DNA of 36,091 nt from a virus: positions 1 to 36,091 of the IMG/VR virus record IMGVR_UViG_3300020442_000283; one strand, written 5' to 3'. The notes under the pieces are model-generated. The model was not told the DNA's origin and ran no database searches. It was given only the letters and a program-made list of their open reading frames with translations. Below are positions 25,572-35,634 of the stretch, one piece after another. A program made the position numbers and the translations under genes. Within the stretch, counting starts at the first letter, position 1. Each line of letters begins with the position of its first letter.

Positions 25572-26081
25572 ATGCAACTTGATGTGATCGAGGATTTTTT
25601 AAGTCCTCAAGATTTCAATAACCTTCAACGTCTATTCGTAGATCATCAATTTCCTTGGTACTTATCCCAAGTAGTTCCAAATGCACCCGTGTTGAGTAAC
25701 ATTCAACTGGTGCATTTTTTCTATGCTGACGGGTTACCTCAGTCTCCTTTATACAGTAAGTTAGAACCAGTCATCAATAAGATCAAAGAGAAAACCAAAT
25801 TTGCAATATTGGTGAGAGCGAAAGCAAATTTAATTACAAGAACAGAAAATATATTAGAACATGGGTATCATATTGATATAAATGATGCACCCTCAAATAT
25901 GAAGACATCCATATTGTATCTCAATACAAATGATGGATATACCAAATTCAAAGATGGTTCGGTTGTTACGTCAGAGTGCAATAGATTTGTAACCTTTGAT
26001 GGGTCAACCGAACATACAGGAACAACGTGTACTAATGAACCCATAAGAATCGTCCTCAACCTCAATTACATAACCAATTAA
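25572..26081 (+). CDS. 2-oxoglutarate/Fe(II)-dependent oxygenase (prolyl hydroxylase-like)
   Basis: 169 residues. MQLDVIEDFLSPQDFNNLQR is a typical start for this family. The metal site is visible as EHGYHIDIND (H100-x-D102), then DGSTEHTGTTC (H148) and EPIRIVLNLNY (R159, 2OG binding). Substrate unknown; placement after fibre genes suggests hydroxylation of virion proteins, but this is inference. It is unlike the oxygenase at 15341 in order and spacing of motifs, so the two are not recent duplicates. The stop lies inside the first bipartite regulatory element. Confidence 0.72.
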   Translation: MQLDVIEDFLSPQDFNNLQRLFVDHQFPWYLSQVVPNAPVLSNIQLVHFFYADGLPQSPLYSKLEPVINKIKEKTKFAILVRAKANLITRTENILEHGYHIDINDAPSNMKTSILYLNTNDGYTKFKDGSVVTSECNRFVTFDGSTEHTGTTCTNEPIRIVLNLNYITN

Positions 26082-26129
26082 AGGGGTGGCACACACCTCA
26101 TAGACACCTGAGTCCTTTTATGCTAGTAT
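26071..26129 (+). promoter_or_regulatory. Early promoter with bipartite element (site K)
   Basis: Left arm TAACCA (26071-26076), 10 bp, right arm TGGCACA (26087-26093), 30 bp, -10 TAGTAT (26124-26129). A weak -35 (TAGACA, 26101) lies 17 bp before the -10. Serves the gene at 26158. Confidence 0.6.
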
Positions 26130-26157
26130 GTAAGGGTAGTTATTGGCACTCAAACTA

Positions 26158-26364
26158 ATGCCCTCATTCACCTTGACTTGCACAGATGATGATGCAACTG
26201 TCACCACTAAAGAGTTTGAAGCAACTATCTTGACAGAAGTTGTAGAAAAAACTCAAGACTTCCTTCATGGAGTCGGATATGTCTTTGATGAAATTCAAGT
26301 AATCGAAGAGAATACGATTGATGAAGATGATAGCGACTCAACTGTCATTCCTTTCAATCGTTAA
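26158..26364 (+). CDS. Small acidic protein of unknown function
   Basis: 68 residues from ATG 26158 (MPSFTLTCTDDDATVTTKEF); an in-frame TTG at 26143 lies too close to the transcript start. A beta hairpin N-terminus precedes a helix (ATILTEVVEKTQDFLHGVG) and an acidic tail (IEENTIDEDDSDSTV). Looks like a small helical early protein; no family recognised. First gene downstream of promoter K. Confidence 0.55.
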   Translation: MPSFTLTCTDDDATVTTKEFEATILTEVVEKTQDFLHGVGYVFDEIQVIEENTIDEDDSDSTVIPFNR

Positions 26365-26404
26365 TATATACATCAAGTAGTTTATTTAATTCACTATCAA
26401 TCAA

Positions 26405-26587
26405 ATGGGTAAGACTTTTCGCAGAGGTGGGTCTGAACGAGGATCATATTATCCTGGCAAATCCATTCGTGACAAACGTCAAAACAATAACGGTACCTAC
26501 AGAGTTCCAAAAGGAGACAATTCACACTATGAAAAAGACACCAGAGGACAACAAAGGTCGAGAACTCAAGAGGAAGATAGATGGTAA
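26405..26587 (+). CDS. Small basic protein of unknown function
   Basis: 60 residues, very rich in Arg, Lys and Gly (MGKTFRRGGSERGSYYPGKS, RDKRQNNNGTYRVPKGD, GQQRSRTQEEDRW). Probably disordered and nucleic-acid binding. Overlaps the next frame by 59 bp, so one of the two could be spurious, but both have composition expected of phage proteins. Confidence 0.45.
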   Translation: MGKTFRRGGSERGSYYPGKSIRDKRQNNNGTYRVPKGDNSHYEKDTRGQQRSRTQEEDRW

Positions 26588-26681
26588 TGAATGTGATGAT
26601 ATCGAAGAATTCTATGATGACATAGAATTTGATGATAGTTCAGAAGTGGACTACGGAATAGAATACACTCTAAGTCAATGA
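26529..26681 (+). CDS. Small acidic protein of unknown function
   Basis: 50 residues from ATG 26529 (MKKTPEDNKGRELKRKIDGN); the frame is open further upstream to a GTG but that part is a shadow of the preceding basic gene. Basic start, strongly acidic end (CDDIEEFYDDIEFDDSSEVD). Its stop overlaps the next ATG (ATGA), the usual coupling in this region, which supports it. Confidence 0.5.
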   Translation: MKKTPEDNKGRELKRKIDGNECDDIEEFYDDIEFDDSSEVDYGIEYTLSQ

Positions 26682-26965
26682 AAGATCAAAATTCAGTCGG
26701 TAAAGAAACCCCTGATATCAAATATCAAAGGGCATTGGATTTGTTTACCGAATCGGTTTACAAACCAGATAGTGATCTGAGAGGTTGTGCATACAACCAA
26801 GATTGTTTTAATGAATTGATGGAAATCAGGGAACACGTCATTAATTACCTTTCTACTTTGAAAGCAACACAAATGCCACACAACCCTGATGAATCCGATA
26901 TACTAGAGAATGAAAAGTTGATTCAAACAAAGAACAACGCTAACCCTCTCTCTAAATGGCGGTAA
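26678..26965 (+). CDS. Small helical protein of unknown function
   Basis: 95 residues: MKDQNSVGKETPDIKYQRAL, with helices around LDLFTESVYKPDSDL and NELMEIREHVINYLSTL. Two Cys (GCAYNQDC). ATGA overlap with the gene before. No family recognised. Confidence 0.55.
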   Translation: MKDQNSVGKETPDIKYQRALDLFTESVYKPDSDLRGCAYNQDCFNELMEIREHVINYLSTLKATQMPHNPDESDILENEKLIQTKNNANPLSKWR

Positions 26966-27165
26966 TGACAGTTATTAGGTCTGCAATTCTAAATCACTCA
27001 CAGAAAGAACTTGTCAAGGATGCTATCCTTTCATACGTTACTAATTTACAGAAACGTTATTTCAAAGACAATGTAATTTCAGAGGAACTCTATCTTGAAA
27101 AGATGGAAGAGGTTAAAGAAATTATCAATGTTCTTCACCTCAATGAATTGTATAAACACGAATAG
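26965..27165 (+). CDS. Small helical protein of unknown function
   Basis: 66 residues from ATG 26965 (MTVIRSAILNHSQKELVKDA), which overlaps the preceding stop by one base; an in-frame ATG at 26956 is the alternative. Fully helical with amphipathic repeats (AILSYVTNLQKRYF, LEKMEEVKEIINVLHLNEL), possibly a coiled coil. Last gene before the terminator/promoter F unit; its stop is 1 bp before the GTGCCA arm of the regulatory element. Confidence 0.55.
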   Translation: MTVIRSAILNHSQKELVKDAILSYVTNLQKRYFKDNVISEELYLEKMEEVKEIINVLHLNELYKHE

Positions 27166-27166
27166 T

Positions 27167-27224
27167 GTGCCAATTTAGAAACTGGATCAGCAGAGTTGAC
27201 CTCTGCTGATTTTTGCTGTACAAT
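27167..27224 (+). promoter_or_regulatory. Early promoter with bipartite element and nested terminator (site F)
   Basis: GTGCCA (27167-27172), 10 bp, TGGATCA (27183-27189), 29 bp, -10 TACAAT (27219-27224). A -35 TTGACC (27196-27201) lies 17 bp before the -10 and forms the loop of the terminator. Leader contains AAACAAAC before ATG 27246. Confidence 0.7.
27186..27214 (+). terminator. Intrinsic terminator inside promoter F
   Basis: Perfect 10-bp stem ATCAGCAGAG / CTCTGCTGAT, loop TTGAC, then a T run. It ends the 26158-27165 unit while its loop is the -35 box of the next. Confidence 0.85.
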
Positions 27225-27245
27225 ATGATTAATTAAACAAACACA

Positions 27246-27725
27246 ATGAAACTCAGAGAACTTTCTCCTATTGAATACGACACAGTTTATACCTATGATC
27301 TTACTGGTAAGGTAAGGTTTTGGGATTTGGAAGAAGAAGACCTATATGAACTATTCAGAGACGGAAGAACATCATCACGTTTCTTGGAGAGACAAGTTCC
27401 TAAGATGTTCGCACAGTTTGAATATGTAGATGGTAAAGGATATGACTGGATTCGTGAACAGTTGAAGAAAGTTGAAGGTAAATGCTATACTAAAGGTGGA
27501 TGTAACTTTGCCCCATCTGCTATGGTAGGGTCAGGTCGTAAGGTAGTTCCCTCGGAAGTTAAGGAACATATCGAAGAATGCGATCTTGACTACATCATCA
27601 TGGACATTGTAGAGTTCCCTACAGTTCACTTTCGTTTTATTAAAGGTAAAGACTTGATCGAAACACATCCTAACTGTAAGATCACAAATGCTAAAAAGTG
27701 GAGGAAAAAGTATTTCGGAGTATGA
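27246..27725 (+). CDS. Unknown early protein next to a DNA methyltransferase
   Basis: 159 residues: MKLRELSPIEYDTVYTYDLT, then VRFWDLEEEDLYELFRDGRT, a Cys pair segment (KCYTKGGCNFAP) and a basic end (NAKKWRKKYFGV). Start ATG follows the AAACAAAC leader of promoter F, without a Shine-Dalgarno sequence. The stop overlaps the methyltransferase ATG (ATGA), so the two are translated together. No recognised domain; could be a partner or unrelated. Confidence 0.6.
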   Translation: MKLRELSPIEYDTVYTYDLTGKVRFWDLEEEDLYELFRDGRTSSRFLERQVPKMFAQFEYVDGKGYDWIREQLKKVEGKCYTKGGCNFAPSAMVGSGRKVVPSEVKEHIEECDLDYIIMDIVEFPTVHFRFIKGKDLIETHPNCKITNAKKWRKKYFGV

Positions 27726-28510
27726 TTTATTTAAAAGATTGTATAGAGGGAATGAAAGAACTTGAAGAGGGTTCTATTGATGCTATCGTTACCTCTCCAC
27801 CATATAACCTCAATATCAAATATGGGTTATATTCTGACAATAAACCTAAACATGATTATCTTGATTGGTTAAAGACAGTATTCAAAGAAGGAAAACGTGT
27901 CTTAAAAGATCAAGGACATTTATTTGTCAATATGGGTTATTCAAATATTGACCCTTTCGTTGGCATGGAAGTTGCAATGACATTGCGAGACGATTGGGTA
28001 TTACAAAATAATATTAATTGGATTAAGTCTGTACATGTCAATGGTAAGACAAGCGGACATTTTAAACCAATTAATAGTAAAAGATTCTTATGTCCTACAT
28101 GGGAAAATCTATTTCACTTCACAAAAGATGGTAACGTCAATATTGATAGACTATCTGTTGGTGTCAAATATGAATACTATGAAGCAAACATAAGAGGAAA
28201 CAATACAAAAGAAAATAAACCTAACCTTAGAGATAAAGGTAACGCATGGTTTATACCCTATGAAACAATTAATAGTAAAGATTTAAGAGGAAAACATCCT
28301 GCTACATTCCCAGTTAAATTAGTAGAGGATTGTCTTAAACTAACTGGCATTGATAAAGGTGTAGTTATTGACCCTTTCATGGGAACTGGGACAACAGCAG
28401 TTGCAGCAAATAATCTTAATTGGTCATATATTGGATATGACATTGATGAAGATTATGTTAAGTTTGCAACAAATAGAGTTAATATGGGTTTGACACCCTT
28501 GCTAACTTGA
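27722..28510 (+). CDS. Beta-class site-specific DNA methyltransferase (N6-adenine or N4-cytosine)
   Basis: 262 residues from ATG 27722, chosen because it overlaps the preceding stop (ATGA). Motif IV, IVTSPPYNL (residues 22-30), is near the N-terminus and the SAM-binding motif I, IDPFMGTGTTAVAA, is near residue 217, giving the IV-to-I order of beta-class amino-methyltransferases. SPPY is typical of exocyclic amino methylation. No restriction endonuclease is visible nearby, so it is probably an orphan enzyme that protects or marks phage DNA. Its 3' end contains a perfect sigma-70 promoter for the next gene. Confidence 0.85.
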   Translation: MIYLKDCIEGMKELEEGSIDAIVTSPPYNLNIKYGLYSDNKPKHDYLDWLKTVFKEGKRVLKDQGHLFVNMGYSNIDPFVGMEVAMTLRDDWVLQNNINWIKSVHVNGKTSGHFKPINSKRFLCPTWENLFHFTKDGNVNIDRLSVGVKYEYYEANIRGNNTKENKPNLRDKGNAWFIPYETINSKDLRGKHPATFPVKLVEDCLKLTGIDKGVVIDPFMGTGTTAVAANNLNWSYIGYDIDEDYVKFATNRVNMGLTPLLT

Positions 28511-28518
28511 TATATAAT
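28490..28518 (+). promoter_or_regulatory. Perfect sigma-70 promoter in the end of the methyltransferase gene
   Basis: TTGACA 28490-28495, 17 bp, TATAAT 28513-28518. The -35 encodes the last codons of the methyltransferase. Transcript start near 28525; ATG 28582 has AGAGGA upstream. Confidence 0.85.
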
Positions 28519-28581
28519 ACTGTCATCAACGGAACATTGCGTCTGTTTAGATGATAACCCGACCTACTATTATAGAGGATT

Positions 28582-29718
28582 ATGTCACAACTAAAGGTTG
28601 GCGAATGGTATTCGCTACCAGTTAATATTGGCGATTGTGCTAATATTGAACTGGACGAGATCGAAATTGGTCTCATCACAAGAGCAGCATTTTTAGAGTT
28701 GCCACAATGGATTACACAAAGGAGTGTAACCAACAGAATTAAAAAGAAAGGTGTATTAGATCACCTTGCTAAACTATTCCCTACGCACTTTATTGTAGCG
28801 TTAGCAGAACTTACAGAAGATGATGTATGGGAAGATGGTCGAGAGTTCAATAAAGGATCAGAGTGGACAATAGATGCTAACTCAAGGGCGTACGTCTGGC
28901 GAAATCAAATGTCAGATAACTTACCCGATCATGTCTTAGCAGTCAAATATAAAGGTAAGACTCTTAGGGATATCAGGAGTATTTACTGGGCATTTGATAA
29001 CCCTACAGCAGCAGAAGTAGCAGCAGAGGTTGTTACTGGTGTGCTGAAATCTTTGAACACTACTTTATACACAAAGAAGTTTCAAGATGGTCAATTTGTA
29101 ACAGCACTATCTTATACTTGTATGTTTGATAATGCTACTGTCTATGGTGACAGAGGATTATGGACAGATAGTGATGACGATAACATTACTAATAGTGAAT
29201 ACAAGAGGAGAATGACATCCCTTGCAGTTCAGCAATACCTACCAACTATTAAAGCAGTTGATAATTTGCTGAATGAGTGTGGTATGTCTAAAGATTTCGA
29301 TCAGACATTTATCACATCATTATTCTTATTCCACTTGAAGATGGGTGTGTTCGATAAGAACGTAGTAGAACTTATGAAACTACTAGCAGAAACCCTACTG
29401 GATGAAGATGGCGAGAAAGTTGGCATTGCCACCACTAAAACAGGTGCATTGCCACCTCAAGGATGGATTAAGAGAGAGAATGACAAGGGTTATGAGAAGA
29501 TAAATGACCTCAAGATCCCTGATAGGGGAAAGATTGATGGTTATTATCAAGGTGTCCCATTCTTCTGCTATTGGTTATACATTGCATCCGAAAATGGACT
29601 GAAAACTAAACAGAAATCAGGTCCAAAACAAGGGTACCGCAAGTGGTTTGACGATACTTTCATGACCAGAACTAACATGAGAGCGATCTTAGAACAGACA
29701 GTCAACAAAGCGTCCTAA
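28582..29718 (+). CDS. ParB/sulfiredoxin-fold-like protein of unknown function
   Basis: 378 residues. The N-terminal 150 residues resemble the ParB-like 'D-G-x-x-R' domain: FNKGSEWTIDANSRAYVWRN (here D-A-N-S-R), then LPDHVLAVKYKGKTLRDIRS and IYWAFDNPTAAEVAAEV. The rest is helical with no motif recognised (GDRGLWTDSDDDNITNSEYK, PQGWIKRENDKGYEKI). ParB-like folds occur in nucleases, in partition proteins and in phage DNA-modification proteins. Location between two methyltransferases and a helicase suggests a DNA-related job. The family call is tentative. Confidence 0.5.
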   Translation: MSQLKVGEWYSLPVNIGDCANIELDEIEIGLITRAAFLELPQWITQRSVTNRIKKKGVLDHLAKLFPTHFIVALAELTEDDVWEDGREFNKGSEWTIDANSRAYVWRNQMSDNLPDHVLAVKYKGKTLRDIRSIYWAFDNPTAAEVAAEVVTGVLKSLNTTLYTKKFQDGQFVTALSYTCMFDNATVYGDRGLWTDSDDDNITNSEYKRRMTSLAVQQYLPTIKAVDNLLNECGMSKDFDQTFITSLFLFHLKMGVFDKNVVELMKLLAETLLDEDGEKVGIATTKTGALPPQGWIKRENDKGYEKINDLKIPDRGKIDGYYQGVPFFCYWLYIASENGLKTKQKSGPKQGYRKWFDDTFMTRTNMRAILEQTVNKAS

Positions 29719-29723
29719 CCCTA

Positions 29724-29752
29724 TTGACAAACCTCACCACACACCTTATTAT
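29724..29752 (+). promoter_or_regulatory. Sigma-70-like promoter
   Basis: TTGACA 29724-29729, 17 bp, TATTAT 29747-29752, just after the ParB-like gene. A weak version of the bipartite element (CAGACA, 10 bp, CGTCCTA; 29695-29717) precedes it at the usual 29 bp from the -10. Confidence 0.75.
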
Positions 29753-29763
29753 TCAAAAGTCCT

Positions 29764-29940
29764 ATGAAACGTGAAATCAAACTACTAAAACACGCTATCA
29801 AGAAAGGGGAGCAAGACCCCTTTCTATACAGCACCGAGGAGACTCTTAAATTAAAAGCAAAACTACGTCAACTTAAACATTGGCAAGAGTGTGCTAGAAT
29901 CTCACAAAACAATGGATTTGGACAGTATCTCAAGGAATGA
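29764..29940 (+). CDS. Small basic protein of unknown function
   Basis: 58 residues: MKREIKLLKHAIKKGEQDPF, then TEETLKLKAKLRQLKHWQEC and NNGFGQYLKE. Two amphipathic Lys-rich helices, possible helical hairpin. Directly behind a good promoter (29724-29752), so expression is likely even though the transcript leader is very short. Confidence 0.55.
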   Translation: MKREIKLLKHAIKKGEQDPFLYSTEETLKLKAKLRQLKHWQECARISQNNGFGQYLKE

Positions 29941-29944
29941 ACCT

Positions 29945-30061
29945 ATGTATGATGAAGAATTCGATCTTGAATGGTCAGAAAATGACGTTGTTCAAGAACC
30001 CGAAGACGATTGGATCAGTTCAGTATTAGGAGAAGTTGAAGACTATGTGACACATCAATAA
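29945..30061 (+). CDS. Acidic microprotein of unknown function
   Basis: 38 residues, about 40 % Asp/Glu: MYDEEFDLEWSENDVVQEPE then DDWISSVLGEVEDYVTHQ. Reminiscent in charge of DNA mimics but too short to claim that. Starts 4 bp after the preceding gene; its last codons form the left arm of regulatory element G. Confidence 0.45.
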   Translation: MYDEEFDLEWSENDVVQEPEDDWISSVLGEVEDYVTHQ

Positions 30062-30104
30062 CTGACACACCCACCTTGACAGGTGGGTTTTTTCATGTCA
30101 TACT
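30047..30104 (+). promoter_or_regulatory. Early promoter with bipartite element and nested terminator (site G)
   Basis: GTGACA (30047-30052), 10 bp, TGACACA (30063-30069), 29 bp, -10 CATACT (30099-30104). -35 TTGACA (30076-30081), 17 bp before the -10, is shared with the terminator loop. Drives the helicase gene. Confidence 0.7.
30070..30093 (+). terminator. Intrinsic terminator inside promoter G
   Basis: CCCACCT / AGGTGGG stem, TGAC loop, six T. The loop and flanks contain the TTGACA -35 of the helicase promoter. Confidence 0.88.
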
Positions 30105-30125
30105 AACAGTATTGAAAGATTTGTA

Positions 30126-31367
30126 ATGATTCACCTGAGACCTCATCAGCAGCGTTGCTTCAATGCAATGCAAAAATATGCCTGTGGTCAAGTGATTGTA
30201 CCTACTGGCGGTGGTAAGACCTATATTATGATTCAACACGCACTTGAGTTGTTGAAGACAGGTAACAAAACTATTGTAGTTGTTGCACCTCGTATTCTTC
30301 TCGCTAATCAGTTGTGTGAAGAGTTCATGCAGTTCATTCCTCAAACATGGACTCATGTATGTCATGCACATAGCGGAGAGACTCATCACTTCAGCAGCAC
30401 AAAAGCGGACAAGATTGGTCTCTTTGTGAACACAGCAAGAGCAAGTGCGGAAAGTGCTATTGTATTCACTACATATCACTCACTTCACAAAGTTATTGAT
30501 AGTGGTGTTCCCATTGATTGCATCTATTATGATGAAGCACACAATGGTTGCCAAAAGAACTTTTTTCAGTCACTCAAAGCAGTTTCATATATTGCTGATC
30601 GTAAATACTATTTCACAGCAACACCTCGTATTGGACGTGGTGTAAGTGCGGAGCGTGGTATGACTAACAGCAAAGTATGGGGTCAAACTATTGCAAGCGT
30701 ATCAGCAAAAGAACTTATCGAGACTGGTGCTATCTTGCCACCTAAGGTAGTTCCCTTTGAAACTAATCGAGTGCGGAATCGAGTCAATGCTCATCAAGTG
30801 GATGCGGATAATCTTATGGACATCATGAATTCACTTGAAGGAGATCACAACAAGATTCTAGTATCAGCACCTAGTAGCAAGATTCTTGGCAATATGCTCG
30901 GTCATACTACCATTCTTGATTACTTCAGTAAAGAAGGTTATCAAGTTATGCACATTACATCTAAGTTTGGTGCAGTCATCAATGGCAAGAAAGTAGGACG
31001 TGAAGAGTTCTTCAATACTCTACAAGAGTGGGGTGCTGACGATAACATTCGCTTCGTGATCTTCCATTATTCTATTCTTAGTGAAGGCATAAATGTACCT
31101 GGTTTGACACATACAATTTTGCTCAGGAACTTGCCTATCATTGAAATGGCACAGACTATTGGTCGTGTTATTCGTGTTCACAAAGATGATCGTAAAGCAG
31201 TTGCTGACGGTCTCATTCCAGTTGGTGCTTTCCACCTATACAAAAAAGGTTTTGGACAAGTTACAATGCCTACTGGATACAAGCAAGGCAATGCTATTGC
31301 TACACGTCTCCAAAATGTAATCAATCAAATCTTTATTGAAGGAGTGCCACCCCTCGCTTATTGCTAA
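30126..31367 (+). CDS. Superfamily 2 DNA helicase
   Basis: 413 residues with the full SF2 set: LRPHQQRCFNAM (Q-like), PTGGGKT Walker A (26-32), VVVAPRILLANQL (Ia), YYDEAHN Walker B (DEAH, 136-139), FTATPR (III, 164-168), SEGINVPGL (V) and MAQTIGRVIRVHK (VI, around 345). It resembles the Res/type III restriction helicase group and T4 UvsW-like enzymes but is shorter than T4 UvsW (about 500) and has no extra N-terminal domain. Possible roles are recombination, fork processing or work with the adjacent methyltransferase, whose ATG immediately follows its TAA. Driven by promoter G. Confidence 0.85.
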   Translation: MIHLRPHQQRCFNAMQKYACGQVIVPTGGGKTYIMIQHALELLKTGNKTIVVVAPRILLANQLCEEFMQFIPQTWTHVCHAHSGETHHFSSTKADKIGLFVNTARASAESAIVFTTYHSLHKVIDSGVPIDCIYYDEAHNGCQKNFFQSLKAVSYIADRKYYFTATPRIGRGVSAERGMTNSKVWGQTIASVSAKELIETGAILPPKVVPFETNRVRNRVNAHQVDADNLMDIMNSLEGDHNKILVSAPSSKILGNMLGHTTILDYFSKEGYQVMHITSKFGAVINGKKVGREEFFNTLQEWGADDNIRFVIFHYSILSEGINVPGLTHTILLRNLPIIEMAQTIGRVIRVHKDDRKAVADGLIPVGAFHLYKKGFGQVTMPTGYKQGNAIATRLQNVINQIFIEGVPPLAYC

Positions 31368-32288
31368 ATGAAAGACACAATTTTATTTGGGGATTGTCGT
31401 CAGACTATCCCAACAATTACTGAACCTGTTAGGATGTGCGTAACATCCCCACCTTATTATGGTCTTAGAGACTATGGAGGAGAGGACAAACAAATTGGAC
31501 AAGAAGGAAGTCCAGAGGAGTTTATTGACCAACTGGTAGAGGTATTCAAAAAAGTCAGGGATGTTCTAACTGATGATGGAACTCTATGGGTCAATATGGG
31601 TGACACATACTATAACTATAGGAGTGATGGCAATTACCCTAAACAAACAGTAAGTAAAACTAATCAAGATTTACCTAGTTTTTCACCTGCAAGAGGTAAC
31701 AAACTACAAGGATTAAAAAGTAAGGATTTGATTGGTGTACCTTGGATGTTGGCATTCGCATTACGCAAAGATGGATGGTATCTTAGGCAAGATATTATTT
31801 GGCATAAACCAAACCCAATGCCCGAAAGTGTAAAGGATAGATGCACTAAATCACATGAATATATTTTCTTACTCAGTAAGAGTAAGAACTATTATTATGA
31901 TAATGAAGCGATCAAAGAACCTGCAAAAGATTGGGGAACTAGAGATCGGACTAATGGTAAGTATCATAATAAAGGAACTGGTTTACAACCTCATACTGGA
32001 CTCAGTAAGAGTTATCCAACTAAGAATAAAAGATCAGTATGGACAGTAACTAGCAAACCATATAGGGAAGCACATTTTGCTACCTACCCACCTGATTTAA
32101 TTGAACCTTGCATCAAAGCAGGTAGTCAAAAGGGTGATATTATTCTTGATCCTTTTATGGGATCAGGAACTACAGCAATGGTCGCTAAACAATTAGATAG
32201 GCATTTTATAGGATGTGAGTTACATGACTCATATAAAACACTTATAGATGGTAGGTTACCTAACACAGCGTTGAGTGATCTGTTCTAA
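31368..32288 (+). CDS. Beta-class DNA methyltransferase (likely N4-cytosine or N6-adenine)
   Basis: 306 residues. Motif IV at CVTSPPYYGLRDYG (residues 24-37), then QIGQEGSPEEFIDQLVEVFK, DGTLWVNMGDTYYN, QDIIWHKPNPMPES (target-recognition side) and SAM-binding ILDPFMGSGTTAMVA near residue 260. This layout is like the orphan methylases often found in cyanophages. It starts directly after the helicase stop (TAAATG), so the two are one transcription and translation unit. It differs greatly from the methyltransferase at 27722, so the targets probably differ. Confidence 0.87.
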   Translation: MKDTILFGDCRQTIPTITEPVRMCVTSPPYYGLRDYGGEDKQIGQEGSPEEFIDQLVEVFKKVRDVLTDDGTLWVNMGDTYYNYRSDGNYPKQTVSKTNQDLPSFSPARGNKLQGLKSKDLIGVPWMLAFALRKDGWYLRQDIIWHKPNPMPESVKDRCTKSHEYIFLLSKSKNYYYDNEAIKEPAKDWGTRDRTNGKYHNKGTGLQPHTGLSKSYPTKNKRSVWTVTSKPYREAHFATYPPDLIEPCIKAGSQKGDIILDPFMGSGTTAMVAKQLDRHFIGCELHDSYKTLIDGRLPNTALSDLF

Positions 32289-32289
32289 T

Positions 32290-32348
32290 GTGACAGTTGA
32301 CGTACTGTCACACATATGGTTGCATAGGTGTAGCGTGTGCTTTATATT
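32290..32348 (+). promoter_or_regulatory. Early promoter with bipartite element (site A)
   Basis: GTGACA (32290-32295), 10 bp, TGTCACA (32306-32312), 7 bp, TTGCAT (32320-32325), 17 bp, TATATT (32343-32348). The arms extend to a 9-bp palindrome. Start expected about 32355. Confidence 0.72.
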
Positions 32349-32354
32349 ATAAAT

Positions 32355-32432
32355 GTCGAAACAAACGAGGCAAGGGTGAGCGACCCCAGTGGAAGATGCT
32401 CTTTAAGTTGAACCTCTCAGTTTTGTTTCGAC
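32355..32432 (+). ncRNA. Structured 5' RNA element closed by an 11-bp perfect stem
   Basis: GTCGAAACAAA (32355-32365) pairs perfectly with TTTGTTTCGAC (32422-32432), enclosing 56 nt with an inner GGGT/ACCC hairpin (32374-32386). The predicted transcript start of promoter A falls on the first base of the stem. It is either a free small RNA or the 5' leader structure of the small frame at 32396-32527, whose ATG lies inside the closed loop. Confidence 0.5.
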
Positions 32433-32527
32433 CCACCAATGACCCTAACCAGTCATTAAAGCGTCACACAGACCCACACAGAGGGGTCTCAGGACGTTAT
32501 ACTAAGGACATCAACACAAGCAAATGA
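32396..32527 (+). CDS. Possible 43-residue basic protein
   Basis: MLFKLNLSVLFRPTNDPNQS then LKRHTDPHRGVSGRYTKDIN TSK. Basic, likely unstructured apart from the N-terminal strand. In favour: its stop overlaps the next ATG as ATGA, the habit of this region, and it lies behind promoter A. Against: no usable Shine-Dalgarno spacing (GGAAG abuts the ATG) and its start is inside a strong RNA hairpin. A longer version from TTG 32297 would begin before the transcript start and is rejected. Confidence 0.4.
   Translation: MLFKLNLSVLFRPTNDPNQSLKRHTDPHRGVSGRYTKDINTSK
32446..32503 (+). promoter_or_regulatory. Early promoter with bipartite element (site I)
   Basis: TAACCA (32446-32451), 10 bp, CGTCACA (32462-32468), 29 bp, -10 TATACT (32498-32503); no -35. 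Leader AAGGACATCAACACAAGCAA before ATG 32524. Confidence 0.6.
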
Positions 32528-32685
32528 ACGAAACAGTTTATGAAGCAGTCTTAGACTGTTACAACCATCCCCCCAATACTCTCAGTAGAGGATGGGATCA
32601 GGATGAAACTCTCGCAGAGACATCCTATCAGTTCAAAATCTTTGATGATTTCTACTATCAACTTTTCGCCCCTATTTACGATTAA
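32524..32685 (+). CDS. Small acidic protein of unknown function
   Basis: 53 residues: MNETVYEAVLDCYNHPPNTL, SRGWDQDETLAETSYQFK, IFDDFYYQLFAPIYD. Rich in Tyr, Phe and acidic residues. Start is set by promoter I and the ATGA overlap with the frame upstream; the last base of its stop is the first of the next ATG (TAATG). No family recognised. Confidence 0.55.
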   Translation: MNETVYEAVLDCYNHPPNTLSRGWDQDETLAETSYQFKIFDDFYYQLFAPIYD

Positions 32686-32846
32686 TGGTTTCCGAAATTC
32701 CTAACGTCCCTTTCTATGATTTTCCTCAGAGTCCAATTTTGATTCTTGGATTCTTTGGTATTCTTGTGGCATTGTTCACAGTTTACACAGTCAACAAAGC
32801 GTACTTCAATTCACCTTTTAATGATGACAATCGAGGACGTAACTAA
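32685..32846 (+). CDS. Single-span membrane protein of unknown function
   Basis: 53 residues with one hydrophobic helix, SPILILGFFGILVALFTVYT, after a short N-terminal segment (MVSEIPNVPFYDFPQ) and before a polar C-terminus (VNKAYFNSPFNDDNRGRN). Likely inner-membrane early protein. Coupled by TAATG to the gene before; overlaps the next gene. Confidence 0.5.
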   Translation: MVSEIPNVPFYDFPQSPILILGFFGILVALFTVYTVNKAYFNSPFNDDNRGRN

Positions 32847-33033
32847 TTCCCCTAAGGATTGGGAAGACTTCTGGTATTTTTCGGAAGAACTTGGTCTATC
32901 TTATCAGTTAGATCAAGAAGACTGGCAAGATCATCAAAAGTATCTTGACCGACTAAAAATCAATCGTTATGTTGAAGATGTTGTTGAAGGAAAAAACAAA
33001 CTTCAAAAACGAGAATCCCCTCTATCTGAATAA
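32824..33033 (+). CDS. Small acidic protein of unknown function
   Basis: 69 residues from ATG 32824 (MTIEDVTNSPKDWEDFWYFS); ATG 32821 is equally possible. The open frame reaches further upstream but overlaps the membrane-protein gene there. Trp- and acid-rich helical protein (LDQEDWQDHQKYLDRLKINR, YVEDVVEGKNKLQKRE). Not recognised. Confidence 0.5.
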   Translation: MTIEDVTNSPKDWEDFWYFSEELGLSYQLDQEDWQDHQKYLDRLKINRYVEDVVEGKNKLQKRESPLSE

Positions 33034-33035
33034 TC

Positions 33036-33242
33036 ATGGACATTAATTTTGAACGTCAAACATCAATCGATAATATGATTGATTCACTCTATGAAGCAAT
33101 GACTAGCAATGGTCTTAATGGACGCATTCCCGAAGCAGCAGCGTGTTACGAGGAGTGGGTAGTTAATGGAGTTGACCCTCAGGAAGTAGATCGCTACGAA
33201 TTTACTTTTTTGAACAATTTTACATTGGAGCAAGAAGCATGA
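33036..33242 (+). CDS. Small helical protein of unknown function
   Basis: 68 residues: MDINFERQTSIDNMIDSLYE, AAACYEEWVVNGVDPQEVDR, YEFTFLNNFTLEQEA. Helical, acidic. It starts 2 bp after the preceding stop and overlaps the next ATG (ATGA). Not recognised. Confidence 0.55.
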   Translation: MDINFERQTSIDNMIDSLYEAMTSNGLNGRIPEAAACYEEWVVNGVDPQEVDRYEFTFLNNFTLEQEA

Positions 33243-33409
33243 ACTGGTCAGCAAATTACTTTGATGGACTAGATGAATTTGAACATCAGTATAATGACAT
33301 TTGGTTCATGAAAATGATCTCTATGTTAAAAGATGATGGAGTTCTCTATGTTCCTATCCTAAACAAATCATTTAACAAAAGAGGACAAGAAATTGAAAAT
33401 CACTCTTAA
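33239..33409 (+). CDS. Small protein of unknown function
   Basis: 56 residues: MNWSANYFDGLDEFEHQYND, IWFMKMISMLKDDGVLYVPI, LNKSFNKRGQEIENHS. The second half (MLKDDGVLYVPIL-x-KSFNKRG) looks like a beta-hairpin/helix unit of small cyanophage early proteins. ATGA start overlap. Overlaps the following frame by 17 bp. Confidence 0.5.
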   Translation: MNWSANYFDGLDEFEHQYNDIWFMKMISMLKDDGVLYVPILNKSFNKRGQEIENHS

Positions 33410-33524
33410 GAACACTAAAAAAGAAATCTTTGAAGCATATCAAAGAGATCAAAATGTGAGAGAGGAGAGAACCATCCTCATCTACATTGCTATCATACTA
33501 TTCACATTTAATTGCTTGTTCTAG
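33393..33524 (+). CDS. Tail-anchored membrane microprotein
   Basis: 43 residues from TTG 33393, with GAGGAC upstream as ribosome binding site: MKITLKNTKKEIFEAYQRDQ, NVREERT, then a C-terminal hydrophobic helix ILIYIAIILFTFNCLF. A soluble helix plus membrane anchor. The TTG start is unusual, and no ATG is available before the helix. The stop codon merges with the left arm of regulatory element B. Confidence 0.45.
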   Translation: MKITLKNTKKEIFEAYQRDQNVREERTILIYIAIILFTFNCLF

Positions 33525-33581
33525 GACAGTTTAAGTACTGTCACATAAACGATTGCATCCCTACAACAAATCGTTTATATT
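33523..33581 (+). promoter_or_regulatory. Early promoter with bipartite element (site B)
   Basis: AGGACA (33523-33528), 10 bp, TGTCACA (33539-33545), 7 bp, TTGCAT (33553-33558), 17 bp, TATATT (33576-33581). Identical layout to site A. Start expected about 33588. Confidence 0.7.
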
Positions 33582-33587
33582 AAGAAC

Positions 33588-33639
33588 ATCAAGGTTATGC
33601 AAACATTTATCAAGTGCTTTGGGATACCTTAACCTTGAT
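33588..33639 (+). promoter_or_regulatory. 5'-terminal leader hairpin
   Basis: ATCAAGGTTA (33588-33597) pairs perfectly with TAACCTTGAT (33630-33639). The 5' arm starts at the predicted transcript start of promoter B, so the message of the gene at 33670 would begin with a hairpin, an arrangement known to protect mRNAs from RNase E. Confidence 0.5.
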
Positions 33640-33669
33640 ACATCATTCACACTTACAATCCCTAATATC

Positions 33670-34122
33670 ATGCCAAATTGGTGTCACAATCGAGTAACAG
33701 TTTACTCAGAAAATACTGAAGAGATCACTAAGATCAGAAATATATTTGAAAGCGAAGCACCTTTTAATGCACTTGTCCCTAGTCCAGTATGGTCAGAAAC
33801 ACCTAACGAAGATGGAGAGTTGCCAGTAAAAGAAGAGCATAAAGATGCTAACGGTAAAGTTATCTTTACAACTGCTAAATTTCCAAAGTCAGGAAAAAAT
33901 GACGAAAGATGGTATGACTGGCAGATTCAAAACTGGGGAACTAAATGGGATATATCTGACGTAGATATTGAACCCGAAGATGATTATGGTCTTGAAATAA
34001 CCTTTGAAACTGCATGGTCTCCACCAGAATATATTTGTGCAGCGATCAGAGAGCAATTTCCTGATACTACAGTAAGTTGGTTTTATGATGAACCTGGTTG
34101 TGAATTAGCAGGTTATCTTTAA
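33670..34122 (+). CDS. Api92/DUF1281-like ferredoxin-fold protein
   Basis: 150 residues from ATG 33670 (MPNWCHNRVTVYSENTEEIT). The MPNWC-x-N-x-V start followed by ERWYDWQIQNWGTKWDISDV, LEITFETAWSPPEYICAAIR and VSWFYDEPGCELAGY is the hallmark of the Api92-like (DUF1281/YubB) family found in phages and plasmids. Function is not known. The WYDWQ-x-x-NWGTKW and the AWSPP motifs are intact. A longer frame from TTG 33553 would start before the transcript and is rejected. Expressed from promoter B through a hairpin leader. Confidence 0.75.
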   Translation: MPNWCHNRVTVYSENTEEITKIRNIFESEAPFNALVPSPVWSETPNEDGELPVKEEHKDANGKVIFTTAKFPKSGKNDERWYDWQIQNWGTKWDISDVDIEPEDDYGLEITFETAWSPPEYICAAIREQFPDTTVSWFYDEPGCELAGYL

Positions 34123-34138
34123 ACTTGCAATAGTACTT

Positions 34139-34196
34139 GTGCCAGTTAATTATGTGTCACACACTTCCTCGCATTGGGTATAAAGCACCCTATAAT
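34139..34196 (+). promoter_or_regulatory. Early promoter with bipartite element (site E)
   Basis: GTGCCA (34139-34144), 10 bp, TGTCACA (34155-34161), 7 bp, TCGCAT (34169-34174), 16 bp, TATAAT (34191-34196). Leader AAGAACATCAAGCAAACAAA precedes ATG 34221. Confidence 0.72.
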
Positions 34197-34220
34197 AAGA
34201 ACATCAAGCAAACAAACCTC

Positions 34221-34439
34221 ATGAAACAAGAAGACCCGATTGATTTCCTAGTTACTATCTACGAGGACTTTCTTTCTAAGCATAACCTACCAGAGTATGA
34301 TGCTTCTGATATGCTTCACGCTCACTTTATCGAAGAGATCACACTTAATGATGGTCAAATCGGTTGGTTAGAAAATTTCATTCGCTTATGGGATTTTGTA
34401 AGCGAAGCAGAATATCAAAACTGGAAGGTAGCAGCATGA
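34221..34439 (+). CDS. Small acidic protein of unknown function
   Basis: 72 residues from ATG 34221 (MKQEDPIDFLVTIYEDFLSK); the open frame extends upstream into the promoter and is not used. Helical: HLPEYD-like loop, MLHAHFIEEITLNDGQIGWL, ENFIRLWDFVSEAEYQNW. Leader has the AAACAAAC box and no Shine-Dalgarno. ATGA overlap with the next gene. Confidence 0.55.
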   Translation: MKQEDPIDFLVTIYEDFLSKHNLPEYDASDMLHAHFIEEITLNDGQIGWLENFIRLWDFVSEAEYQNWKVAA

Positions 34440-34567
34440 ATAAGTATGAAATCACATGGGATGAGCAATATCAACTCATCAAATTATATGATCTCTTGAG
34501 AGATAACGGTATGATCGAAGATCTACCAAAAGAGATCGAAACATTCTTTGAAAAACTACTTGACTAA
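34436..34567 (+). CDS. Small protein of unknown function
   Basis: 43 residues from ATG 34436 (MNKYEITWDEQYQLIKLYDL), chosen for its ATGA overlap; the open frame begins earlier inside the gene before. A single long helix region (LRDNGMIEDLPKEIETFFEK). Not recognised. Confidence 0.5.
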   Translation: MNKYEITWDEQYQLIKLYDLLRDNGMIEDLPKEIETFFEKLLD

Positions 34568-34571
34568 ACTC

Positions 34572-34859
34572 ATGACTAACTTGAATGACCAAATCAAACT
34601 TGAAAAGTTTGGTATGACTCAAAATGAATTACAGGAACTTAGGTATCATTTAGTCGATCGCATTGTCGATAATATGTCAGTCGAGGATTTAGTTCAATAT
34701 GTCAAAGAGGACATGGAGAACATGATGAATGACTTGCCTGATGTAGAATTTATTGATGAAGCAAAAAACTACTGGGATGATGCTTATGATGATGTTGTTG
34801 ATGACATCAAAGAGTATGCTAACTCAGATTTTAAAAAACCAATGGAGGACAGAACATGA
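34572..34859 (+). CDS. Acidic helical protein of unknown function
   Basis: 95 residues from ATG 34572 (MTNLNDQIKLEKFGMTQNEL). Strongly acidic helices: MSVEDLVQYVKEDMENMMND, AKNYWDDAYDDVVDDIKEYA. Starts 4 bp after the preceding stop; stop overlaps the next ATG (ATGA). Negative charge and small size are common in early phage inhibitors, but no family is recognised. Confidence 0.5.
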   Translation: MTNLNDQIKLEKFGMTQNELQELRYHLVDRIVDNMSVEDLVQYVKEDMENMMNDLPDVEFIDEAKNYWDDAYDDVVDDIKEYANSDFKKPMEDRT

Positions 34860-35023
34860 ACCAGTTTAGAATTGAATGCTCAGAGATTAACTACTTCACA
34901 GTATTAGTTGAAGCAGAAAATGAAGCAGAAGCAAGAGAACTTGCCCACGCTAATATAAACGCATTCCCTATTGAAGAGGAACACGTCTCAGAGTGGACTA
35001 TAGAGACTGTAGAGGAGTTGTAA
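34856..35023 (+). CDS. Small protein of unknown function, possible ferredoxin-like hairpin fold
   Basis: 55 residues: MNQFRIECSEINYFTVLVEA, ENEAEARELAHANINAFPIE, EEHVSEWTIETVEEL. Beta-alpha-beta layout (strand FRIECS..YFTVLVEA, helix EAEARELAHANI, strand EWTIETVEEL), as in many small phage proteins of unknown function. ATGA start. Last gene before site C. Confidence 0.55.
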   Translation: MNQFRIECSEINYFTVLVEAENEAEARELAHANINAFPIEEEHVSEWTIETVEEL

Positions 35024-35032
35024 ACCGATAGT

Positions 35033-35092
35033 GTGACAGTTAAAGTACTGTCACACACTTTCCCCATTCGGGGTTTTTTTATGCCATACTAT
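35033..35092 (+). promoter_or_regulatory. Early promoter with bipartite element and nested terminator (site C)
   Basis: GTGACA (35033-35038), 10 bp, TGTCACA (35049-35055), 29 bp, -10 CATACT (35085-35090; TACTAT 35087-35092 is an alternative). The most symmetric copy: 10-bp arms GTGTGACAGT / ACTGTCACAC. No -35 seen. Confidence 0.68.
35062..35080 (+). terminator. Intrinsic terminator inside promoter C
   Basis: CCCC-ATTC-GGGG followed by seven T, ending 4 bp before the -10 box. Short stem but all G-C. Confidence 0.65.
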
Positions 35093-35117
35093 AGGTATCA
35101 AATCAAATCAGTCAATT

Positions 35118-35279
35118 ATGCGATATTCAGTTCACGTCCCATCCGCACCTTACGAAAATTCAAGTTTTGTTGACTTGGATGACTGTTGGGGTCTTTGTTA
35201 TGATCTTGCTCAGGAGTATGGTTATGCCGAAGTTAGGTATGGAAATTGCCTTATGGGTTCTTATAGTGACAAAGATTAA
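35118..35279 (+). CDS. Small protein of unknown function
   Basis: 53 residues: MRYSVHVPSAPYENSSFVDL, DDCWGLCYDLAQEYGYAEVR, YGNCLMGSYSDKD. Three Cys, beta-alpha-beta appearance. The start is set by promoter C. Its last codons (S-D-K-D-stop) contain the left arm of element D. Not recognised. Confidence 0.5.
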   Translation: MRYSVHVPSAPYENSSFVDLDDCWGLCYDLAQEYGYAEVRYGNCLMGSYSDKD

Positions 35280-35323
35280 ACTGTCACACACATACACACA
35301 TAACACAATTTTCCCTTTATACT
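35266..35323 (+). promoter_or_regulatory. Early promoter with bipartite element (site D)
   Basis: GTGACA (35266-35271), 10 bp, TGTCACA (35282-35288), 29 bp, -10 TATACT (35318-35323), no clear -35. Leader AAGAATAACAAACGAGGACA before ATG 35346. Confidence 0.68.
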
Positions 35324-35345
35324 AAGAATAACAAACGAGGACATT

Positions 35346-35621
35346 ATGCAATTCAAATCTCAAAACGAAGAAACAGTAATTGACTACTATGAAGTTCACA
35401 ATGCTAAGAGAGAGACAATCAAGAATGCTAGACTCAGAATTGTTACTTTCTTAGGTAAGACAATCTCAAGAAATCCAATTAATGTTTTTGACATGGCAGA
35501 AGAAATTGATGTTTTGTTAGAAAAGAACTATGCAGTTACTATTAACACAAAAAGACCATCCCAGTATCTGTTAGGTGTGACAGCACAGAAAGTGGCACAG
35601 TCTCGCACCTCTTTCTACTAA
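35346..35621 (+). CDS. Small basic protein of unknown function
   Basis: 91 residues: MQFKSQNEETVIDYYEVHNA, KRETIKNARLRIVTFLGKTI, NVFDMAEEIDVLLEKNYAVT, INTKRPSQYLLGVTAQKVAQ. Mixed alpha/beta with a basic C-terminus. Preceded by GAGGAC at good spacing. Element H lies in its last 45 bases. Not recognised. Confidence 0.55.
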   Translation: MQFKSQNEETVIDYYEVHNAKRETIKNARLRIVTFLGKTISRNPINVFDMAEEIDVLLEKNYAVTINTKRPSQYLLGVTAQKVAQSRTSFY

Positions 35622-35634
35622 TCCCCACTATAAT
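35577..35634 (+). promoter_or_regulatory. Early promoter with bipartite element (site H)
   Basis: GTGACA (35577-35582), 10 bp, TGGCACA (35593-35599), 29 bp, -10 TATAAT (35629-35634). The element lies within the coding end of the preceding gene. Leader AATTAAACAAACATC directly precedes ATG 35656. Confidence 0.68.

Follow-up and report, generated by a model that had tools for sequence, protein, structure and literature searches.

A symmetric element before early promoters of T4-like marine cyanophages resembles the site upstream of host yfr2 genes and may recruit the host regulator PlmA

T4-like cyanophages switch on their early genes without Alt, MotA and AsiA, in a way that has been called unclear (PMC2984593). 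The question is raised by a 36-kb contig from a T4-like marine cyanophage (IMG/VR record IMGVR_UViG_3300020442_000283, 36,091 nucleotides, hereafter the window), in which a preliminary description had noted an inverted repeat ahead of ten promoters and proposed that it is the site of a dimeric activator, from phage or host, which defines an early/middle regulon. All ten pairs of arms proved to be present where they had been described, with an inner gap of exactly 10 bp and a distance of 29 or 30 bp to a -10 hexamer. A position-weight model refined the site to a 24-bp dyad, TGTG(A/C)CA(C/G)TT-N4-AA(C/G)TG(T/G)CACA, i.e. TGTGMCASTT-N4-AASTGKCACA. Its arms reach further inward than those of the repeat first noted, and the consensus is a perfect dyad. 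The element is enriched over shuffled sequence, a comparison that the preliminary description had proposed. With up to two arm mismatches and a -10 hexamer required at the right distance, the window contains 12 sites where second-order shuffles give an expectation of 0. At a threshold of at least 15 bits in the position-weight model, it contains 17 matches against 0 in the shuffles (both strands counted in each case).

The element occupies a fixed place in the promoter. It ends 29-30 bp 5' of the -10 and spans about -65 to -42, and its centre, earlier placed near -53, indeed lies at about -53. As an independent test, we scanned IMG/VR for the perfect palindrome TGTGACA-N10-TGTCACA alone, with no -10 required. 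Over at least 120 loci among the matches listed, -10-like hexamers peaked at 29 bp (48/270 orientations) and 30 bp (34/270) past the right arm, compared with at most 15/270 at every other spacing; among the same matches, a -10 lies at 28-30 bp in 97 loci, and 83 of these 97 encode two or more proteins of T4-like cyanophage type. The -10 is TATAAT-like across 149 sites from nine sequences, and an ATG-initiated open reading frame (ORF) begins 18-35 nt past it at 66% of these sites versus 6% of random positions. The impression that many of these promoters lack a good -35 was partly right. The -35 is weak, but it is a degenerate TTG-type box rather than absent, with 53 of the 149 sites within two mismatches of TTGACA, where shuffled gaps would give about 17.

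The element is widespread in related phages. At two or fewer mismatches, the dyad is present in 3-11 copies each in Syn9, P-TIM40, S-PM2, P-SSM2, P-SSM4, P-RSM1, S-TIM4 and P-HM2. The enrichment extends to all eight complete T4-like cyanophages, which have 21-43 matches per phage at 15 bits or more, compared with 0-1.2 in order-2 shuffles (both strands counted). Removal of duplicates leaves 12-26 sites per complete genome (n = 8). The Pelagibacter myophage HTVC008M shows no excess (1 match versus 1.0 expected at 15 bits or more) and no dyad at two or fewer mismatches. T4 and Ma-LMM01 likewise have no dyad at two or fewer mismatches, and the T7-like cyanophages P-SSP7 and Syn5 and the siphovirus S-CBS2 have none within three mismatches of the full consensus.

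To define the genes served, we compared the eight complete phages and assigned genes to the early class by position and orthology. The element lies upstream of a peptidase-like gene in seven phages, of helicase orthologues in six as well as in the window, and of CobS and of Syn9 gp183 orthologues in six each; small ORFs are also among the early genes that it precedes. For gp32, three phages have upstream matches that are lower-scoring or shifted, and psbA of P-SSM4 has one distant, low-scoring match. The element was found upstream of gp43, gp44, uvsX, nrdA, gp18, gp20, gp23, gp55 and phoH in none of the eight. The earlier statement that no late gene has the element is true for the late genes checked (gp18, gp20 and gp23). 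The suggestion that it fills the gap left by MotA and AsiA is not supported, as the replication genes gp43, gp44 and uvsX, and also nrdA, lack it in every phage and early genes have it. Thus, the element marks an early class, and not replication or structural genes.

The same promoter architecture is found in cyanobacteria. A search of 390 Cyanobacteriia genomes at one or no mismatch returned 21 dyad sites, versus 1 for the reversed control. At 7 of the 17 loci retrieved, the Rfam RNA Cyano-1 begins about 40 nt past the dyad, and most Cyano-1 loci have a -10-like hexamer about 29-31 bp past it, as in the phage promoters. Cyano-1 corresponds to the Yfr2 family, since the Yfr2a promoter primer given for Synechocystis in PMC2662882 contains the motif TTGTGTGTGAGGAG of the Cyano-1 5' end. 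Yfr2 is present in 17/17 genomes searched, and the sole dyad match in Synechocystis salina at up to three mismatches is a yfr2 promoter. We collected 29 yfr2 upstream regions and searched them with a left half-site model trained on the phages. It gave 13 matches within the 4 bp from -62 to -59 relative to the RNA start (maximum of 3 in 500 shuffles) and 21 overall (3.8 expected). The most frequent 7-mer in these regions is GACAGTT. Host half-sites include GAGGACAGTTGAAGGAGCGCCCTG in WH7803 and TAGGACAGTTGAAATAGCGCACTA and TGTGCCAGTTAGGTTAGTTGCCTC in other picocyanobacterial genomes; the window equivalent is TAGGACAGTTTAAGTACTGTCACA (33522..33545), the left half of which exactly matches TAGGACAGTT, the form in host yfr2 promoters.

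The GntR family protein PMM1637 is reported to bind CGRE1-containing yfr2 promoters and to mediate Yfr2 induction (PMC6778093). CGRE1 is the element through which yfr2 promoters of marine picocyanobacteria respond to PMM1637 (PlmA) (Lambrecht 2018, cited in that paper). PMM1637 corresponds to PlmA, a protein that is also a member of the PII-PipX complex (PMC6243067). Because the same site precedes host yfr2 genes at the same position, the phage element points to this host regulator. A search for GntR (PF00392) genes was positive in 10 of 11 host genomes, of which nine gave one match each, and negative in all nine phages. An alignment shows the PlmA winged-helix region TGLHRNTISKVY to be near-identical from Prochlorococcus to Synechocystis. 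Of the regulon first proposed, the dimeric activator site and the early class are well supported and the middle class is not, and the choice between phage and host is narrowed to the host.

We propose that early sigma-70-type promoters of marine T4-like cyanophages carry a 24-bp operator between about -65 and -42, which host PlmA (PMM1637 in Prochlorococcus MED4) would occupy. PlmA would then help the unmodified host RNA polymerase to initiate where the -35 is degenerate, and in the phage operator the site that hosts have before yfr2 small-RNA genes would be perfected and symmetric. Judged from the sequence comparisons, recruitment of host PlmA as the early activator is probable and the most economical explanation; PlmA most likely binds the phage copies and activates the early genes. 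The literature that we searched states no PlmA link for phages; the 2018 DNA Research paper that defines CGRE1, outside that search, may mention one.

Several observations weigh against PlmA recruitment. A good half-site is seen in only 17 of the 29 yfr2 upstream regions. Marine picocyanobacteria have one strong half-site only, the right half being degenerate (its mean score is -1.6, where phages have +11.3 and random sequence -17.8), so that the phage sites look like perfected host sites. In the marine picocyanobacterial genomes searched, allowing up to three mismatches, the full dyad is no more frequent than its reversed control. One host assembly (G005), perhaps incomplete, has no GntR match, and Ma-LMM01 lacks the dyad at the threshold given above though its host is a cyanobacterium. 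Finally, we infer the equivalence of the element and CGRE1 from host yfr2 upstream regions.

The null result for the full dyad in marine picocyanobacteria first suggested a phage factor, in which case the element would be the operator of an activator encoded by the phage, virion-injected or immediate early, and its likeness to the yfr2 site would reflect mimicry or a shared ancestral specificity. The much stronger and more symmetric dyad of the phages compared with marine hosts fits such a factor, as do the phage-wide extent of the regulon and the lack of full-dyad enrichment in the marine hosts searched. However, the Cyanobacteriia-wide search and Rfam displaced this explanation, and we now consider it improbable: the host site shares its sequence and spacing with the phage element, and none of the nine phages encodes a detectable GntR protein. 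Syn9 and seven other cyanophages have 72 ORFs in common, and we scanned ten small ones undetected in HTVC008M against Pfam and PHROGs. None of these ten conserved proteins matches a DNA-binding Pfam family, and the sole PHROG labelled as a transcriptional regulator, phrog_385 (Syn9 gp230), has no DNA-binding Pfam match either.

The host protein could also be one other than PlmA, for example another yfr2 regulator, as our analysis shows host promoter position only and the assignment to PlmA comes from the binding result of one group (PMC6778093). We give this lower credence still, since PMM1637 is the yfr2 promoter binder reported there and the half-site is the commonest 7-mer in the 29 upstream regions. 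Several copies of the repeat directly follow the stop codon of an upstream gene and, once transcribed, could fold into a stem. A role in RNA, as a terminator or a processing hairpin for the transcript from upstream, with incidental spacing to the -10, was considered as well. This is very hard to reconcile with arms that are mismatched in many copies, with a spacing fixed at 29-30 bp in sites picked regardless of the -10, and with host copies that sit upstream of an independent small-RNA promoter.

Searching 251 genomes of the same picocyanobacterial family at two or fewer mismatches gave 17-18 dyad matches, versus 2 in the control. The loci inspected adjoin integrase-like ORFs or other genes, have no evident -10 at the right spacing and are unlike T4-like cyanophage contigs. 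In two picocyanobacterial genomes (L323 and L324), near-perfect dyads adjoin integrase-like ORFs and show no promoter configuration.

Among known systems, the phage promoters come closest to the CGRE1-type yfr2 promoters. A common half-site, (G/T)GACAGTT or TGTGCCAGTT, is positioned alike in both with respect to the -10. The host promoter is strong, and activation, not repression, is reported for it. Compared via host upstream regions, the phage copies differ in being symmetric full dyads, about 12-26 per genome, that drive early phage genes. T4 middle promoters, with their MotA box and AsiA, resemble the phage promoters in combining a sigma-70 -10 and a weak -35 with an activator site further upstream, but their activator site is centred at about -30 and not about -53, and the phage element serves early and not middle genes. 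A MotA-type middle promoter is ruled out by the position of the element, by its absence from gp43, gp44 and uvsX, and by the lack of motA in cyanomyoviruses (PMC2984593). As first noted, the element is neither an NtcA site (GTA-N8-TAC), from which its half-sites and spacing differ, nor a CRP site (TGTGA-N6-TCACA), because the gap from TGTGM to KCACA is 14 and not 6. The P2 Ogr and P4 delta sites are dyads, TGT-N12-ACA, centred near -55, and thus also lie about five turns 5' of the start at promoters with weak -35 boxes. They serve late genes, however, through a phage-encoded zinc-finger activator, and the spacing here, TGT-N18-ACA, excludes a site of this type. PhoB controls P-SSM2 pstS and S-PM2d genes through Pho boxes (PMC10976474). 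These boxes are likewise operators of a host regulator in phage promoters, with a different regulator and motif, and they serve phosphorus-response genes and not the core early class.

Doron et al. (2016, ISME J) reportedly described a novel element that regulates the early genes of Syn9 and P-TIM40. Both phages carry the present element upstream of genes that are early by position and orthology, so it is probably the same element and not a new one.

If PlmA is the activator, the early promoters would be tied to a regulator of essentially all cyanobacteria, which would provide a concrete activator candidate, and infection would be linked to host nitrogen and light signalling via a single protein. 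One phage reportedly follows almost the same programme from one host to another, which PlmA recruitment would fit. The PlmA regulon is poorly defined, and the phage element supplies many candidate PlmA sites. In three cyanobacterial genomes (L337, L338 and L339), the sequence TGTACCAGTTTT(G/A)CAAGTGGCACA is conserved with no Cyano-1 RNA nearby, and is a candidate further PlmA target.

The dyad also occurs in virus contigs unlike T4-like cyanophages. Three of these (L066, L014 and L110) have a -10 at about 28-31 bp from the dyad, which suggests independent recruitment of the same host regulator; one encodes an Ant-type antirepressor, one a portal protein and one a primase. A further contig without evident T4-like relatives (L029, IMGVR_UViG_3300031784_003461) carries 14 dyad copies, some of them in arrays with a period of about 57-63 bp in which every unit has a TTGACA. 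The copies may represent a repeated promoter or an array for titration.

One promoter of the window serves a putative conserved phage non-coding RNA. The dyad TGTGACAGTTGACGTACTGTCACA (32289..32312, + strand, as are all features below; 28.9 bits) with the -10 TATATT at 32343-32348 precedes an RNA at 32350..32438, AUGUCGAAACAAAC ... GUUUUGUUUCGACCCAC, that is closed by a long terminal stem and has no Rfam match. Related RNAs were found in P-RSM1 at about 16.4 kb (L169), in S-TIM4 at about 41.6 kb (L180) and at L064, L406, L407, L410, L422 and L457. In all 29 sequences with an upstream element promoter, from the window and other cyanophage sequences, the RNA starts exactly 4 nt past the -10. The 5' AUGUCGAAACAAAC and, in most, the 3' GUUUUGUUUCGACCCAC are conserved and the middle is variable. 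The 10-mer GUCGAAACAA is common to the phage RNA and to most of the Yfr2 RNAs listed, where it lies in the Yfr2 loop, and the 3' strand of the phage RNA is complementary to it; the phage RNA could pair with Yfr2. A far-reaching extension, which we regard as rather unlikely, is that the whole early programme is gated by PlmA and hence by the nitrogen/carbon status conveyed by host PII-PipX, with the PlmA-Yfr2 circuit perhaps taken over through the phage RNA that shares GUCGAAACAA.

The other sites of the window lie before ORFs. Two of the ten noted at first, with arms at 26071 (9.9 bits) and 32446 (12.0 bits), are weak, and the remaining eight score 17.8-29.0. The weakest, ATAACCAATTAAAGGGGTGGCACA (26070..26093), is borderline and lies with the -10 TAGTAT (26124-26129) upstream of an ORF in the frame 26143-26364. 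It is followed by TGTGCCAATTTAGAAACTGGATCA (27166..27189; 19.5 bits), with the -10 TACAAT (27219-27224) and the ORF 27246-27725. An addition to the ten, ACAGACAGTCAACAAAGCGTCCTA (29694..29717), with the -10 TATTAT (29747-29752) and the ORF 29764-29940, is a marginal candidate (9.0 + 4.3 bits). The helicase ORF (30126-31367) is preceded by TGTGACACATCAATAACTGACACA (30046..30069; 22.7 bits), a -35 TTGACA and the -10 CATACT (30099-30104). Past the non-coding RNA, CTAACCAGTCATTAAAGCGTCACA (32445..32468), which has a weak left arm, and the -10 TATACT (32498-32503) serve the ORF 32524-32685. The site at 33522..33545 (24.9 bits) has the -10 TATATT (33576-33581) and a leader before an ORF in the frame 33553-34122. 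Next come TGTGCCAGTTAATTATGTGTCACA (34138..34161; 27.4 bits) with the -10 TATAAT (34191-34196), upstream of an ORF in the frame 34137-34439, and TGTGACAGTTAAAGTACTGTCACA (35032..35055; 29.0 bits) with the -10 CATACT (35085-35090), upstream of the ORF 35118-35279. The last two are AGTGACAAAGATTAAACTGTCACA (35265..35288; 17.8 bits), with the -10 TATACT (35318-35323) and the ORF 35346-35621, and TGTGACAGCACAGAAAGTGGCACA (35576..35599; 25.9 bits), with the -10 TATAAT (35629-35634) and an ORF that runs from about 35657 toward the contig end.

The leader after the 33523 promoter (33582-33650) contains an inverted repeat, ATCAAGGTTA...TAACCTTGAT, 5' of the coding region, and may form a structured 5' leader. 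The helicase gene in the early region of the window is flanked by two DNA methyltransferase genes (27698-28510 and 31368-32288).

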